Program-made: the position numbers and the translations under genes | The notes under the pieces: generated by a model | Database searches by the model: none | Told to the model about the DNA's origin: nothing | The model's input: only the letters and a program-made list of their open reading frames with translations | Shown: one piece after another, positions 674 to 5,082 of the stretch | Numbering within the stretch: position 1 is the first letter of the stretch | How the letters are laid out: each line of letters opens with the position of its first letter | NCBI RefSeq assembly: GCF_016428855.1 | Contig: NZ_JAELTN010000003.1 | Location: 1-64,000, forward strand | Length of the DNA: 64,000 bases | DNA from: Pedobacter sp. ASV28 | GTDB taxonomy: Bacteria > Bacteroidota > Bacteroidia > Sphingobacteriales > Sphingobacteriaceae | Direction: 5' to 3'

Positions 674-1597
674 ATGAACCATAAACTTGATTTGGTAAAG
701 CTAAGCAGCGAATCGAAGTTGCAGACTTTAGTAGAGAACAGGACCTCTTACAGTTTAGAAAGATGCGAGCTAAATATATTTGAAACCTACACCCAATCTT
801 ACAAGGTACCTTTAACATTTAATGATTTTGTGATTACCAGTATGCTACGTGGTAAAAAGGTAATGCATTTGAATGAAAAAAAAGAGTTTGAGTATTTGCC
901 AGGCGAAACGGTGATTGTGCCGCCTGCTGAAACCATGCGGATTGATTTTCCAGAAGCTACAGACCTAAATCCTACGCAGTGTATTGCACTGGCCATTGAT
1001 AATGGGCAGATCAGGCAGACCATTAGGTATTTAAATGAATATTTCCCAAAAGAAAGCAGTGATGAAGAATGGAAATTAAACTATGACGAATACCATTTTT
1101 ATAACAACGAGGAGATCGCTTATTTAATTAATAAGGTAATTAAGGTTTGCTCAGATACTTCTAGAGAGAAGGACGTGTTGGCAGATCTGACTTTAAAAGA
1201 ATTGTTGGTGAGAATAATGCAGACCCAAAACTTGAACATGTTGCAGGGAGAAATGATGGACCACAATCCATTGGCCCATGTTATTGGTTATATTAAGTCA
1301 AATCTTAACGAAAAGATCAGCATAGAAAGCCTAAGTAACAAAGCATGCATGAGCAAGGCCACTTTTTACAGATTGTTTAAACGTGAACTTGGCGTAAGCC
1401 CAAATGATTTTATTTTGGCCGAAAAAATGAAAAAAGCTAAAGAAATGCTGTTAAGACCAGGCACTAAAATTGCGGTCATCAGCTATGAACTAGGTTTTAG
1501 CGATTCTAACTATTTCATTAGGGCATTTAAAAAGATAGTAGGCATCACTCCAGGTGCTTTTCAGTCGCAAAGTATGATATCGAGATTGAGTTTTTAA
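674..1597 (+). CDS. AraC family transcriptional regulator
   Basis: A 307-residue cytosolic DNA-binding regulator. The N-terminal ~190 residues form a cupin-like sensor domain of the type seen in AraC_N regulators, with a stretch rich in beta-prone residues around GETVIVPPAETMRI. The C-terminal ~100 residues carry two helix-turn-helix units: one around SIESLSNKACMSKATFYRLF, and the second in the IAVISYELGFSDSNYFIRAF region, followed by the conserved KKIVGITPGAF end. It lies divergent from an aldehyde dehydrogenase, so it probably activates that gene in response to an aldehyde or alcohol. The inducer is unknown. The family is certain; the target is inferred from position. Confidence 0.92.
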   Translation: MNHKLDLVKLSSESKLQTLVENRTSYSLERCELNIFETYTQSYKVPLTFNDFVITSMLRGKKVMHLNEKKEFEYLPGETVIVPPAETMRIDFPEATDLNPTQCIALAIDNGQIRQTIRYLNEYFPKESSDEEWKLNYDEYHFYNNEEIAYLINKVIKVCSDTSREKDVLADLTLKELLVRIMQTQNLNMLQGEMMDHNPLAHVIGYIKSNLNEKISIESLSNKACMSKATFYRLFKRELGVSPNDFILAEKMKKAKEMLLRPGTKIAVISYELGFSDSNYFIRAFKKIVGITPGAFQSQSMISRLSF

Positions 1598-1650: not shown

Positions 1651-1836
1651 CTAAAATTCTTTTTCTTTCTTCAATTTTTCTTCGTCTCTGTAGTAATCAT
1701 AAAGACTCCAAATTAATAAAACTACTCCTAAAGCTAACAATGGAAATTTTACCCAGTTGGCTCCATCGTTGAAGCAAATTACAGTAATGAACAAGGCTAC
1801 TACGCTCAGTCTTTCTTTATTTTCTATCGTTGTCAT
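1651..1836 (-). CDS. Small membrane protein, paralogue of the protein at 2987-3178
   Basis: A 61-residue protein of unknown function. It has a short charged N-terminus (MTTIENKERL), two closely spaced hydrophobic segments (about residues 10-22 and 31-46) and a strongly charged tail rich in Lys and Glu. It resembles the 63-residue protein at the other end of the cluster: both start M-x-T-x-E-x-K and share K-[YF]-P-[ML]-L-A between the hydrophobic segments. It sits 70 bases downstream of the 198-residue membrane protein and has its own promoter-like motif matching the one upstream of its paralogue. A role with the sigma factor is inferred from position only. Confidence 0.65.
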   Translation of the reverse strand: MTTIENKERLSVVALFITVICFNDGANWVKFPLLALGVVLLIWSLYDYYRDEEKLKKEKEF

Positions 1837-1865
1837 AATGTTTTTGTTTTAAAGTTTATACCCTA

Positions 1866-1893
1866 TTAGTATAAGGAAACAGAAAACGTTACA
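1866..1893 (-). promoter_or_regulatory. Putative ECF-sigma promoter, copy 2
   Basis: On the minus strand: TGTAA (1893-1889), 18 bases, ACTAA (1870-1866), then GTATAA five bases further on. The start codon is 29 bases after ACTAA. The same arrangement (TGTAA, 19 bases, ACTAA, then GTATAA) occurs upstream of the paralogous small gene at 3178. This suggests recognition by the ECF sigma factor encoded between them. Confidence 0.5.
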
Positions 1894-1906
1894 ACATTTT
1901 ATTTTT

Positions 1907-2503
1907 TTAAGAAAGCTCCTCTATTTTCATTTTTAAATCCGCTACCGGTTTTTTAAAAATGCTCCTGTTCATTACTCTTCCTAAAAGGATAATTAAAATG
2001 CCTATTGGAATGAGGATGTAAACTTGGGTAAGGAAATTAGATTGGGTTGTTATGTTGTCAAAAGTTTTGTGAACAGTAAGTTGGTAGCACAATAGCCCAA
2101 TAGGGGCGGCAATTGGTGCGACAACATAGCCCCATAAATTCTCTATCGCTAATATTTTGGTAATGGCCTTTAAATTACCTTCCAGTACTTGTTTGGTGCT
2201 CGATGAATAGTCGATACTTGTTTTGATTTTCCGAAAATGGAGTACGGCGAACAATCTGAAAACCTCATATAAGACAAAGATACCTATCAATACCATCTTT
2301 AAATCTCTTTCGGCAAAAAGTGCTAAAGCCAAAATCGGTAAGTCAATGATTCTAATCCATCTTAACTTCCATTTGAGTTTAAAAGCTAAATCCTGTAAAA
2401 GACTTTTCGACTGATTGTCTAAGGTGAATTTCGAAACCAATTCATTCTGTTTTGCCTTCAGTATTTCAGCCGACATTTGTTGCCATTCTTGTTGTAAATC
2501 CAT
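1907..2503 (-). CDS. Multi-pass membrane protein cotranscribed with ECF sigma factor
   Basis: A 198-residue protein with no recognised domain. The N-terminal ~45 residues are a soluble helical stretch (MDLQQEWQQMSAEILKAKQN...). Hydrophobic segments follow at about residues 50-67, 70-88, 120-140 and 160-178, ending in a cytosolic helical tail. Its start codon lies one base after the sigma factor stop, so the two are almost certainly translated together. Position and architecture (a soluble N-terminal helix ahead of membrane helices) fit an anti-sigma factor or signal-receiving partner. No known anti-sigma domain or zinc motif is visible, so the function is inferred. Confidence 0.75.
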   Translation of the reverse strand: MDLQQEWQQMSAEILKAKQNELVSKFTLDNQSKSLLQDLAFKLKWKLRWIRIIDLPILALALFAERDLKMVLIGIFVLYEVFRLFAVLHFRKIKTSIDYSSSTKQVLEGNLKAITKILAIENLWGYVVAPIAAPIGLLCYQLTVHKTFDNITTQSNFLTQVYILIPIGILIILLGRVMNRSIFKKPVADLKMKIEELS

Positions 2504-2504
2504 T

Positions 2505-2987
2505 TTATTTTTGAGTTAAAATAGTGGTCAATTGTTGTTTGATGCGATGAAGTTTAACGGTGGCATTGCCTTTAGATAACCCCATCATTTCGCTGATTTC
2601 AGTATTGTCAAAGCCATCGAGATGTAGTATGATGATACTTCGGTCTATTTCTGCCAATTGTTTAATGGCACGATATAAAAAATCAGCTCTTTCCGACAGT
2701 TCCGCTGACTCAAAAGCAATATCCTCTTGTAAAGTGGTATTTTCTTTAATTTGATTAGCTTTTTTACGCTTGCTCAGAAAGGTGAGTGCTACATTTAAGC
2801 TAATTCGGTATAGCCAAGTCGAAAATTTAGCTTTGCCTTCAAATCTTGAATAAGCACTCCAGCTTTGCAGTACAACTTCCTGATAAAGGTCTTTACGGTC
2901 CTCAAAATCATCGGTGTATAAGTTGACCACCTTGAGGATAATTCCTTTATGTTCTTCAATTTTTTGGAGATAAGCTTTCTCGGTCAT
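2505..2987 (-). CDS. RNA polymerase sigma factor, ECF family
   Basis: A 160-residue sigma-70 family protein, the usual length for an ECF sigma factor. Region 2 is about residues 20-95, with the core-binding and -10 reading words DLYQEVVLQSW and FSTWLYRISLNVALTFL. Region 4 is about 105-155, with the helix-turn-helix FDNTEISEMMGLSKGNATVK. It redirects RNA polymerase to a special promoter set. Its start codon overlaps the stop of the upstream 63-residue gene (TAATG), and its stop is one base before the start of the 198-residue membrane protein, giving a tightly coupled operon. The shared motif before both flanking small genes suggests autoregulation. Confidence 0.93.
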   Translation of the reverse strand: MTEKAYLQKIEEHKGIILKVVNLYTDDFEDRKDLYQEVVLQSWSAYSRFEGKAKFSTWLYRISLNVALTFLSKRKKANQIKENTTLQEDIAFESAELSERADFLYRAIKQLAEIDRSIIILHLDGFDNTEISEMMGLSKGNATVKLHRIKQQLTTILTQK

Positions 2988-3178
2988 TATTTTTTAGCCT
3001 TTGAAATTCGATTGGCTTTAAATTCATGGTATAGCTGAACCGCTACAATGATAAAAGAAATAGTAGCGATTGCCAACATTGGATACTTCAATATTGGCGG
3101 CATTTCTGTAGTGGAAAGGATAAGGATAAGAAATGCTGTTAAAGCAATTCTGCTGGGTTTTTTCTCTGTTGTGCTCAT
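2987..3178 (-). CDS. Small membrane protein, first gene of the sigma operon
   Basis: A 63-residue protein with two hydrophobic segments (about residues 10-25 and 32-50) and a basic C-terminal tail. It is paralogous to the 61-residue protein at 1651-1836, and no known family is recognised. Its stop overlaps the sigma factor start by one base (TAATG), so translation is coupled. A hairpin-sized membrane protein leading a sigma operon could be a signal sensor or a co-anti-sigma protein. That is inference; only the paralogy, topology and coupling are seen. Confidence 0.65.
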   Translation of the reverse strand: MSTTEKKPSRIALTAFLILILSTTEMPPILKYPMLAIATISFIIVAVQLYHEFKANRISKAKK

Positions 3179-3202
3179 GTTGCAACTGTTTAATTTATAC
3201 AG

Positions 3203-3231
3203 TTAGTGAGCGAAGGGGCTAAAAAATTACA
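3203..3231 (-). promoter_or_regulatory. Putative ECF-sigma promoter, copy 1
   Basis: On the minus strand: TGTAA (3231-3227), 19 bases, ACTAA (3207-3203), GTATAA, then 16 bases to the first start codon of the sigma operon. It matches the motif at 1866-1893. Two copies at the two ends of one operon support autoregulation. Confidence 0.5.
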
Positions 3232-3274: not shown

Positions 3275-3372
3275 TAAACCTTTGCGTCATTTCGCGAAAT
3301 CTTTCAAAACCTTTGCGGTTAAATTTATTTCTCGCAAAGAAAAAAAGAGTGACACTAAGAACGCAAAGATTT
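3275..3372. repeat. Intergenic CTTTGCG/CGCAAAG repeat block
   Basis: Between the sigma operon and the hexosaminidase lie CCTTTGCG words at about 3279 and 3310 and their inverse CGCAAAG at about 3334 and 3363, around an AT-rich core. The arrangement can fold into an imperfect hairpin and looks like the dispersed intergenic repeats common in Bacteroidota. Copy number elsewhere cannot be seen here. Confidence 0.4.
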
Positions 3373-3393: not shown

Positions 3394-5067
3394 TTAATTC
3401 GCAGCTGGACTAAGGTATCTTTGACTATAAGTAATCCCCATTAAATCATAGCGTTTAAACTGATTTTTTAGCCTATTTAAAAAGTCTGCATAATTCTTCT
3501 GCTCTTTTTGCGACCATTGTATTTCACTTAGTGCATCCATTCTTGGAAACAGCATATACTCAACTTTGGCAGGGTTGGCAATATACTCCGACCATAAATT
3601 ACCTTGGGCACCCCAAATGTATTTTGCCTGTTCTGCATTAAGCTCTGCTGGCACGGGCTCGTAGTTGTAAACGGTTTCAAGTGGTAAGAATTTATTTGCG
3701 GCTAAACTATCCTCTTTCATAAATTGCTTATGGTTGAGATATAGTTTTTCTTCGGGGCTCATGACGACCTTTTGTTTTACTTTTGCAGCAGCAATACCGC
3801 CCTTTTCGCCACGCCAGCTCATCACCACGGCATTTGGTGCCAGTCCGCCATCTAAAATTTCGTCCCAGCCAATAATGGTTTTGCCCTTGCTGTTCACAAA
3901 TTTTTCGATTCTGTGAATAAAATAGCTTTGGAGGGCAACTTCATCTTTAATGCCTTTTTCCTTCATGATTTTCTGCGTTTCTGCAGATTGTTTCCACCAC
4001 ACTTTGGAAGCCTCGTCGCCGCCAATGTGTACATATTTAGAAGGGAATAGGTCCATTACTTCAGTGAGTACATCTTCTAAGAAAGAGAAAGTTTTTTCGC
4101 TAGCTTGAAAAACGTTGTTGTATTTATTCATCATTCCCCAGGTTTCGGCTACTTGGTATTTTTTGTTGGGGTCTGTACCAAACTCTGGGTAGGCTGCCAA
4201 TGCAGCCATGCTGTGTGCAGGCATTTCAATTTCAGGGATAATGGTAATATACCTCTCAGCAGCATATTTGATCACGTCTTTAATTTCTTCTTGGGTATAA
4301 TAACCGCCATGACGAATGCCATCTGTTTTAATTACAGCATTTTCGGGCGTAATTTTAACGTCGTTTGTTAAAACCTGATATTTAATATTTTCATTTCCTT
4401 TTCCTGGCCAAAGCCCAATAATACTACCATTTCGCCAAGCACCTATTGCTGTAAGTTTCGGATATTTCTTTATCTCAATTCTCCATCCATGATCATCTGT
4501 TAAATGCCAATGGAAATAATTCATTTTATGTAAGGCTAAATAATCAATATATTTTTTTATAAAGGTCACCTCGAAAAAATGGCGACTTACATCAAGGTGC
4601 ATGCCTCGATAATCAAACCGAGGATAATCTATGATGTGAACAGCAGGTACAAGTAATGGGGCCGTTGTGGAAGTCGGTAATAATTGTATCAATGTTTGCA
4701 CGCCGTAAAAAATACCTGGTGCTGAAGTGCCGACAATAGAAACGTTGTTCTCCTGTGTCGACAATACATAGGCATTGTCAAATTTACTGACTTTTGCATT
4801 TAGCATTAGCTTTATAAAGTTTTTGCTAGGCGCAACGGTAGTGACATTTAGCTTTAAATTAAAATACTTTTGCAGATAGTCGTTAAGGAAATTAGCCGAA
4901 TTAATTAAAGAATCATTCTGGATGTAAATTTGTGTGTTTGCATTTATCGTAAATGACTTTTTTAGGTGCTCTACTTTTACGTCTACCGGCTGCGGAATAA
5001 GGCTAATTTGCGCATTAGCTGTATAGGTTATCGTAATAAGGAAGGTGATCAGGATAAGTTTCTTCAT
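3394..5067 (-). CDS. Beta-N-acetylhexosaminidase, GH20
   Basis: A 557-residue secreted or periplasmic enzyme that removes terminal beta-linked GlcNAc or GalNAc from glycans or chitin fragments. The start at 5067 (MKKLILITFL) gives a clean signal peptide ending near TANAQ; an upstream in-frame Met adds only five residues. Residues ~20-140 form the GH20b domain. The TIM barrel starts at DYPRFDYRGMHLDVSRHFF and carries HWHLTDDHGWR and the catalytic pair Asp351-Glu352 in HIGGDEA, as needed for substrate-assisted catalysis. The C-terminal part has WGAQGNLWSEYI and FPRMDALSEIQW, typical of the family. It stands alone, with no polysaccharide-utilisation neighbours. Confidence 0.95.
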   Translation of the reverse strand: MKKLILITFLITITYTANAQISLIPQPVDVKVEHLKKSFTINANTQIYIQNDSLINSANFLNDYLQKYFNLKLNVTTVAPSKNFIKLMLNAKVSKFDNAYVLSTQENNVSIVGTSAPGIFYGVQTLIQLLPTSTTAPLLVPAVHIIDYPRFDYRGMHLDVSRHFFEVTFIKKYIDYLALHKMNYFHWHLTDDHGWRIEIKKYPKLTAIGAWRNGSIIGLWPGKGNENIKYQVLTNDVKITPENAVIKTDGIRHGGYYTQEEIKDVIKYAAERYITIIPEIEMPAHSMAALAAYPEFGTDPNKKYQVAETWGMMNKYNNVFQASEKTFSFLEDVLTEVMDLFPSKYVHIGGDEASKVWWKQSAETQKIMKEKGIKDEVALQSYFIHRIEKFVNSKGKTIIGWDEILDGGLAPNAVVMSWRGEKGGIAAAKVKQKVVMSPEEKLYLNHKQFMKEDSLAANKFLPLETVYNYEPVPAELNAEQAKYIWGAQGNLWSEYIANPAKVEYMLFPRMDALSEIQWSQKEQKNYADFLNRLKNQFKRYDLMGITYSQRYLSPAAN

Positions 5068-5082
5068 ACTCAAAAATAGCAT

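Follow-up and report, generated by a model that had tools for sequence, protein, structure and literature searches.

In B. subtilis, two membrane proteins, YhdL and YhdK, jointly restrain an ECF sigma factor; YhdL is the main anti-sigma factor encoded in the sigM-yhdL-yhdK operon and the only one of the two known to bind directly (PMC6827917). Class I anti-sigma factors (ASDI), represented by RseA, RsiW and RskA, are characterized by a four-helix domain, and ASDIs adjoin only 6% of Bacteroidetes ECFs (PMC7406223). In Bacteroides, the Dma proteins of ECF21 sigma factors combine a single TM helix with a long disordered tether and, at the C-terminus, a beta-barrel, and Dma2 regulates mainly its own operon (PMC13088901). 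A literature search for work on Pedobacter ECF or anti-sigma factors, or on the promoter reported below, returned no paper, most subscription journals being outside its scope.

The locus reported here lies in the window, i.e. the whole 64-kb stretch of DNA that was analysed, from a genome of the soil bacterium Pedobacter close to P. chitinilyticus. Its features are the following:

3394..5082, minus strand: GH20 hexosaminidase gene (Glyco_hydro_20, 1.7e-115), a syntenic anchor outside the module.
3200..3231, minus strand: P1, ECF-type promoter of small1-sigma-4TM, TGTAATTTTTTAGCCCCTTCGCTCACTAACTG (TGTAA, 19-base spacer, ACTAACTG).
2987..3178, minus strand: small1, a 63-aa two-helix membrane protein that opens the operon (ORF call).
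2505..2987, minus strand: ECF sigma factor (sigma), 160 aa, only regions 2 and 4 (Pfam and NCBIfam).
1907..2503, minus strand: 4-TM membrane protein (4TM), 198 aa, a probable membrane anti-sigma factor.
1865..1893, minus strand: P2, promoter of small2, TGTAACGTTTTCTGTTTCCTTATACTAAT, 18-base spacer, of the class of the paralogous sigmaB operon.
1651..1836, minus strand: small2, a 61-aa paralogue of small1.
674..1597, plus strand: AraC-type regulator (HTH_18 2.9e-23, AraC_N 1.7e-22), a syntenic anchor.

In the direction of transcription the order is P1, small1, sigma, 4TM, P2 and small2, with the GH20 gene upstream and the AraC-type regulator downstream. An earlier sequence-only reading of this DNA had described four ORFs, a sigma factor and a multi-pass membrane protein between two small proteins, and all four were found as claimed, on the minus strand. 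The sigma gene encodes an ECF sigma70 factor (Sigma70_r2 6.5e-13 and Sigma70_r4_2 3.6e-10 in Pfam; TIGR02937 1.2e-20, above cut-off, in NCBIfam), and its 160 residues comprise Sigma70 regions 2 and 4 alone, as in ECF (group 4) proteins. For small1, small2 and 4TM, no meaningful family match was obtained in Pfam or NCBIfam. In the window, small1 and sigma share one base while sigma and 4TM are separated by one base, which agrees with the translational coupling proposed for the first three genes. The intergenic region upstream of P1 also contains a direct repeat, AAACCTTTGCG, in two copies 31 bases apart (window 3276-3317), which resembles a dispersed intergenic repeat.

The conservation of this arrangement was followed in 145 Pedobacter genomes, 24 of which carry the 4TM gene. 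In 24/24 carriers, 4TM comes directly after an orthologous sigma gene, and the linkage is tight in every locus (a gap of +1 or 0, or an overlap of up to 11 bases). The small1 gene precedes sigma in 20 of the 24; G020 has a diverged small ORF at the small1 position, and sigma and 4TM are found without small1 in G018, G004 and G089. These last three carriers point to sigma and 4TM as the core of the operon. The one-base overlap of small1 and sigma holds for the window but not as a general feature, since it was found in 7 of the 20 loci, the others having a gap of 1-12 bases. The small1-sigma-4TM arrangement, together with P1, is also present in two genomes of a sister genus of the same family; among 399 sampled family members outside Pedobacter and those two genomes, weak or partial matches only were detected. 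In addition, the sigma orthologues form a clade apart from that of a paralogous sigma factor, sigmaB (support 100/100), and the region-4 recognition helix differs between the two.

The P1 promoter is conserved along with the genes. Its -35 element, TGTAATTTT, is invariant across 19 aligned orthologous upstream regions, in which the TACTAACTGT block reaches 84-100% identity per column, against 32-53% in the middle of the spacer. The spacer measures 19 bases in 25 of 26 sigma-bearing loci, including those devoid of small1 and counting one ATTAA -10. When up to one mismatch was allowed, the P1 pattern was detected in 11 of 12 tested carriers and in 0 of 8 non-carriers, with one additional match inside a gene. 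This strong conservation, and the presence of P1 being tied to that of sigma, are consistent with the autoregulation expected of an ECF operon. Extra P1-like sites (1-2 mismatches) were mostly intragenic and about as frequent as matches to the reversed pattern, and for this reason no wider P1 regulon is claimed. The GTATAA that had been taken for a shared promoter element is not conserved, TGTACAAA, TGTTCAAA or TGAACATA occurring there in the orthologous promoters; as a separate conserved element it was rejected. Judged from sequence, small1, sigma and 4TM form an operon that has been conserved across Pedobacter under a single, strongly conserved promoter, and this conservation of operon and P1 supports the proposed module, in which a putatively autoregulated ECF sigma is accompanied by a membrane regulator and by a tiny membrane protein.

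By analogy, the nearest functional counterpart of this operon would be sigM-yhdL-yhdK, an autoregulated ECF sigma operon with two membrane proteins (PMC6827917). YhdK comes after sigma and YhdL (PMC6827917), whereas small1 opens its operon and some carriers lack it. With respect to a requirement for a second protein of the YhdK type, the three carriers devoid of small1 indicate that it is not obligatory there. It could nevertheless be supposed that small1 alone acts as an accessory, YhdK-like co-anti-sigma factor of the local 4TM, and that small2 was recruited as an accessory of sigmaB and its own 4TM partner. The translational link of small1 with sigma, which it nearly always adjoins, and the sigmaB-class promoter of small2 described below argue for this explanation, which we consider rather unlikely in view of the sigma-4TM operons that exist without small1. 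Furthermore, the neighbourhood of sigmaB yielded no small2-like gene, and G140 possesses sigmaB and its promoter and has no small2 match.

The 64-kb window contains exactly two copies of the pattern TGTAA-N18/19-ACTAA, one ahead of each small gene as the sequence-only reading had it, for a chance expectation of 0.02; TGTAA-NN-TTT-N13/14-ACTAA is likewise restricted to those two window sites (expected 0.02). The two promoters had been described as matching, but they turned out to be different motifs, with TGTAATTTT (P1) or TGTAACGTTTT (P2) as -35 context, a spacer of 19 or 18 bases, and ACTAACTG or ACTAAT as -10 continuation, respectively. P2, which reads TGTAACGTTTT-N12-ACTAAT with an 18-base spacer, is a perfect match to the sigmaB autopromoters and scores +31.8 bits on the sigmaB matrix and -19.3 on the P1 matrix. 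The promoters of five out of six small2 genes behave in the same way (+27 to +35 on the sigmaB matrix, -19 to -27 on that of P1), the exception being a frameshifted copy in G065 whose P2 spacer is 19.

A search of 12 genomes with the P2 pattern, at no more than one mismatch, returned 15 matches: nine upstream of a sigmaB operon or of its TraB gene, five upstream of small2-type genes and one left unassigned; the reversed pattern, used as a control, gave one match. Four genomes in which small2 lies beside the locus, or beside a deletion scar of the locus (G000, G011, G102 and G050), contain exactly two P2-class sites each, at the sigmaB operon and at small2. At this level of analysis, the correspondence between promoter classes and sigma operons is an association rather than proof of recognition.

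The distribution of small2 differs from that of the operon. It adjoins the operon in only 3 of the 24 carriers (G000, G011 and G102), and it is found without the operon in G050 and G084. Thus, the bracket formed by two small proteins exists in the window but is not a conserved unit, small2 also occurring without sigma and 4TM, and the expectation that the small proteins are kept beside sigma elsewhere was borne out across genomes for small1 (20/24) but not for small2 (3/24). In G050, small1, sigma and 4TM have been removed by a deletion of some 1.3 kb that begins shortly downstream of P1 and ends shortly upstream of P2; small2 is 97% identical, P2 is intact, and the leftover P1 has a spacer of 18. 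In G084 (C193; L053/L058), a small2-like gene with a P2-class promoter stands alone at the site. Neither G050 nor G084 yielded an orthologue of the local sigma (the assembly of the latter being 82% complete), and the closest sigma match of G050 is sigmaB, 40% identical. The GH20 gene also flanks the small2 or small2-like genes of G050, G084 and G065. The lone small2-like gene of G065 (C59:304272; L059), a genome without sigma, is frameshifted and has a P2 spacer of 19.

Because P2 belongs to the class of the sigmaB autopromoter and small2 persists where the local sigma is gone, small2 is probably controlled by sigmaB, and these observations fit a protein that serves the paralogous circuit as an output or as a connector. 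Since TGTAA and ACTAA are common to P1 and P2, transcription from P2 may be initiated by the local sigma as well.

The same data bear on the proposal of a self-contained module with one shared promoter, in which the local sigma would drive both P1 and P2 and the small proteins would be sensors or anti-sigma subunits acting with 4TM in a YhdK-like manner. A precedent does exist for very small membrane proteins encoded alongside an ECF sigma and a larger regulator in the membrane (PMC6827917), small1 lies beside sigma in 20/24 carriers of the genus, and the TGTAA and ACTAA shared by the two promoters would suit a single sigma factor. However, P2 is scored at +32 by the sigmaB matrix and at -19 by that of P1, small2 and P2 have been kept in G050 and G084, and small1 is missing from three carriers. 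Such a module is therefore improbable in our opinion, and a single promoter shared by both small genes is not supported.

Two further loci show altered sigma and 4TM genes. In G126 (C1:2534770; L155) the pair is broken, and in G135 (C1:4827642; L157) an in-frame deletion joins the N-terminus of sigma to the C-terminus of 4TM, a P1-like promoter remaining. The two genes seem to disappear as a pair, and their joint loss, in G050 and in the G135 fusion, is what a restraint of sigma by 4TM would predict.

The sigmaB operon often has the order TraB/GumN-sigma-4TM, its TraB/GumN first gene belonging to PF01963; in the genome of the window it is apparently split over contigs C70 and C142. Such operons resemble the local one in their sigma/4TM core, their overlapping genes and their TGTAA...ACTAA autopromoter, and differ from it in the first gene, in the separate sigma clade and in the TGTAACGTTTT promoter class with a spacer of 18. 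At 16 of 16 paralogous sigma loci examined, the sigma gene is closely followed by one for a membrane protein, some 180-209 aa long and in almost every case with four predicted TM segments. The first gene in these operons is small1, TraB/GumN, a small lipoprotein-like ORF, or none, and this variation suggests that the first-position genes are outputs of circuits of which sigma-4TM is the core.

Small lipoprotein-like ORFs of 70 and 64 aa were noticed upstream of another sigma/4TM pair at L070 and L071 (G011:C8 and G140:C6, respectively); the one at L070 has a P1-like promoter in front of it and runs into the start of sigma. Each paralogous sigma operon of L064-L079 has its own promoter variant, for example TGTAACATTTT...GTTCTAATAGACATAC at L074. 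These variants suggest that the circuits form an ECF family whose members have separable specificities.

The 4TM protein contains four hydrophobic segments, and its N-terminus, middle loop and C-terminus are rich in K/R, which by charge predicts an N-in, C-in orientation; in this sequence-derived topology there is no periplasmic domain. The AF2 model is all-helical (pLDDT 77), with a low-confidence N-terminus, and a fold search with it gave generic helical-bundle matches only, none with E <= 0.001. No recognised anti-sigma domain was detected in Pfam or NCBIfam. Alignment with the sigmaB partner by hhalign (probability 72%) indicated a weak but full-length kinship.

Like ASDI proteins, 4TM is a membrane protein encoded directly after an ECF sigma (PMC7406223). 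Unlike them, it has no anti-sigma family match and a cytoplasmic stretch of only about 45 residues ahead of TM1, and the four-helix N-terminal domain of that class was not found with Pfam or NCBIfam. Its operon recalls those of the Dma proteins in being a putative sigma/anti-sigma operon specific to Bacteroidota (PMC13088901), but its 198 residues, four hydrophobic segments and all-helical model set 4TM apart from them. From gene coupling and joint loss, 4TM is likely a membrane anti-sigma factor. A bolder proposal, unlikely though conceivable, is that the 4-TM proteins of about 200 aa whose genes directly follow these Bacteroidota ECF sigma genes constitute an undescribed class of membrane-embedded anti-sigma factors without periplasmic sensor, the small proteins being diffusible membrane connectors by which one sigma circuit would tune another, paralogous one.

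The paralogy of small1 and small2 had been asserted on their likeness, which indeed exceeds chance: their local score is 55, for a shuffle mean of 20.4 (SD 3.6), and was reached in 0 of 5000 shuffles. A recent tandem duplication of small1 was ruled out, as the two proteins are about 30% identical while small1 orthologues of near relatives share 75-97% identity. Modelling of the small1/small2 alignment with AF2 yielded two helices, 10-23 and 28-62 (pLDDT 73).

Purifying selection was observed on all four genes in most close pairs (dN/dS of about 0.03-0.28). For small1 the ratio was mostly 0.04-0.28, being higher in a single pair with very few synonymous changes, and for the four closest copies of small2 it was 0.04-0.10. 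Together with the invariant P1 -35 next to a variable spacer in 19 loci, these low ratios make it very improbable that the small genes are non-functional duplication relics whose promoters were kept by recent common descent alone, even if small2 is limited to a few related genomes and frameshifted in G065. Rather than obligatory sensors, the small proteins resemble regulated outputs or accessories. They might act as sensors or anti-sigma subunits, but this is not the favoured view, since three carriers do without small1 and small2 outlives the local sigma.

The explanation that we favour, and hold to be fairly probable, is that this locus is a meeting point of two related ECF circuits, small2 being driven mainly by sigmaB and the small proteins being outputs or accessories. 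The genes, their conservation, the operon layout, the two promoter classes with their partner operons, and the loss of sigma with retention of small2 were read from the DNA; from these we infer sigma-promoter recognition, the anti-sigma role of 4TM, the signal and the function of the small proteins. Without signal, 4TM, an inner-membrane protein with short cytoplasmic parts only, would hold sigma at the membrane. Upon a membrane or envelope signal, 4TM would release sigma, and the freed sigma would transcribe its own operon from P1, giving more sigma, more of its brake and more small1. The diverged paralogue small2 would be transcribed from P2 mainly by sigmaB, which is encoded elsewhere with its own 4-TM partner. 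The two-helix small proteins would serve as membrane outputs or accessory modulators of the circuits rather than as obligatory anti-sigma factors.

As a whole, the locus appears to be a variant of the already known autoregulated operon of an ECF sigma and a membrane anti-sigma factor, of which the putatively cross-wired small2 is the unusual part. It provides a natural experiment on promoter assignment: adjacent promoters that look alike belong to separable classes, and one species has lost one sigma and kept the target of the other. Sigma specificity and the cross-wiring of paralogous circuits thereby become directly testable at this locus. Finally, because class I domains adjoin just 6% of Bacteroidetes ECF sigma factors (PMC7406223), the 4TM proteins are worth testing: the membrane protein without family encoded at the paralogous sigma loci is a concrete candidate for the missing Bacteroidetes brake.
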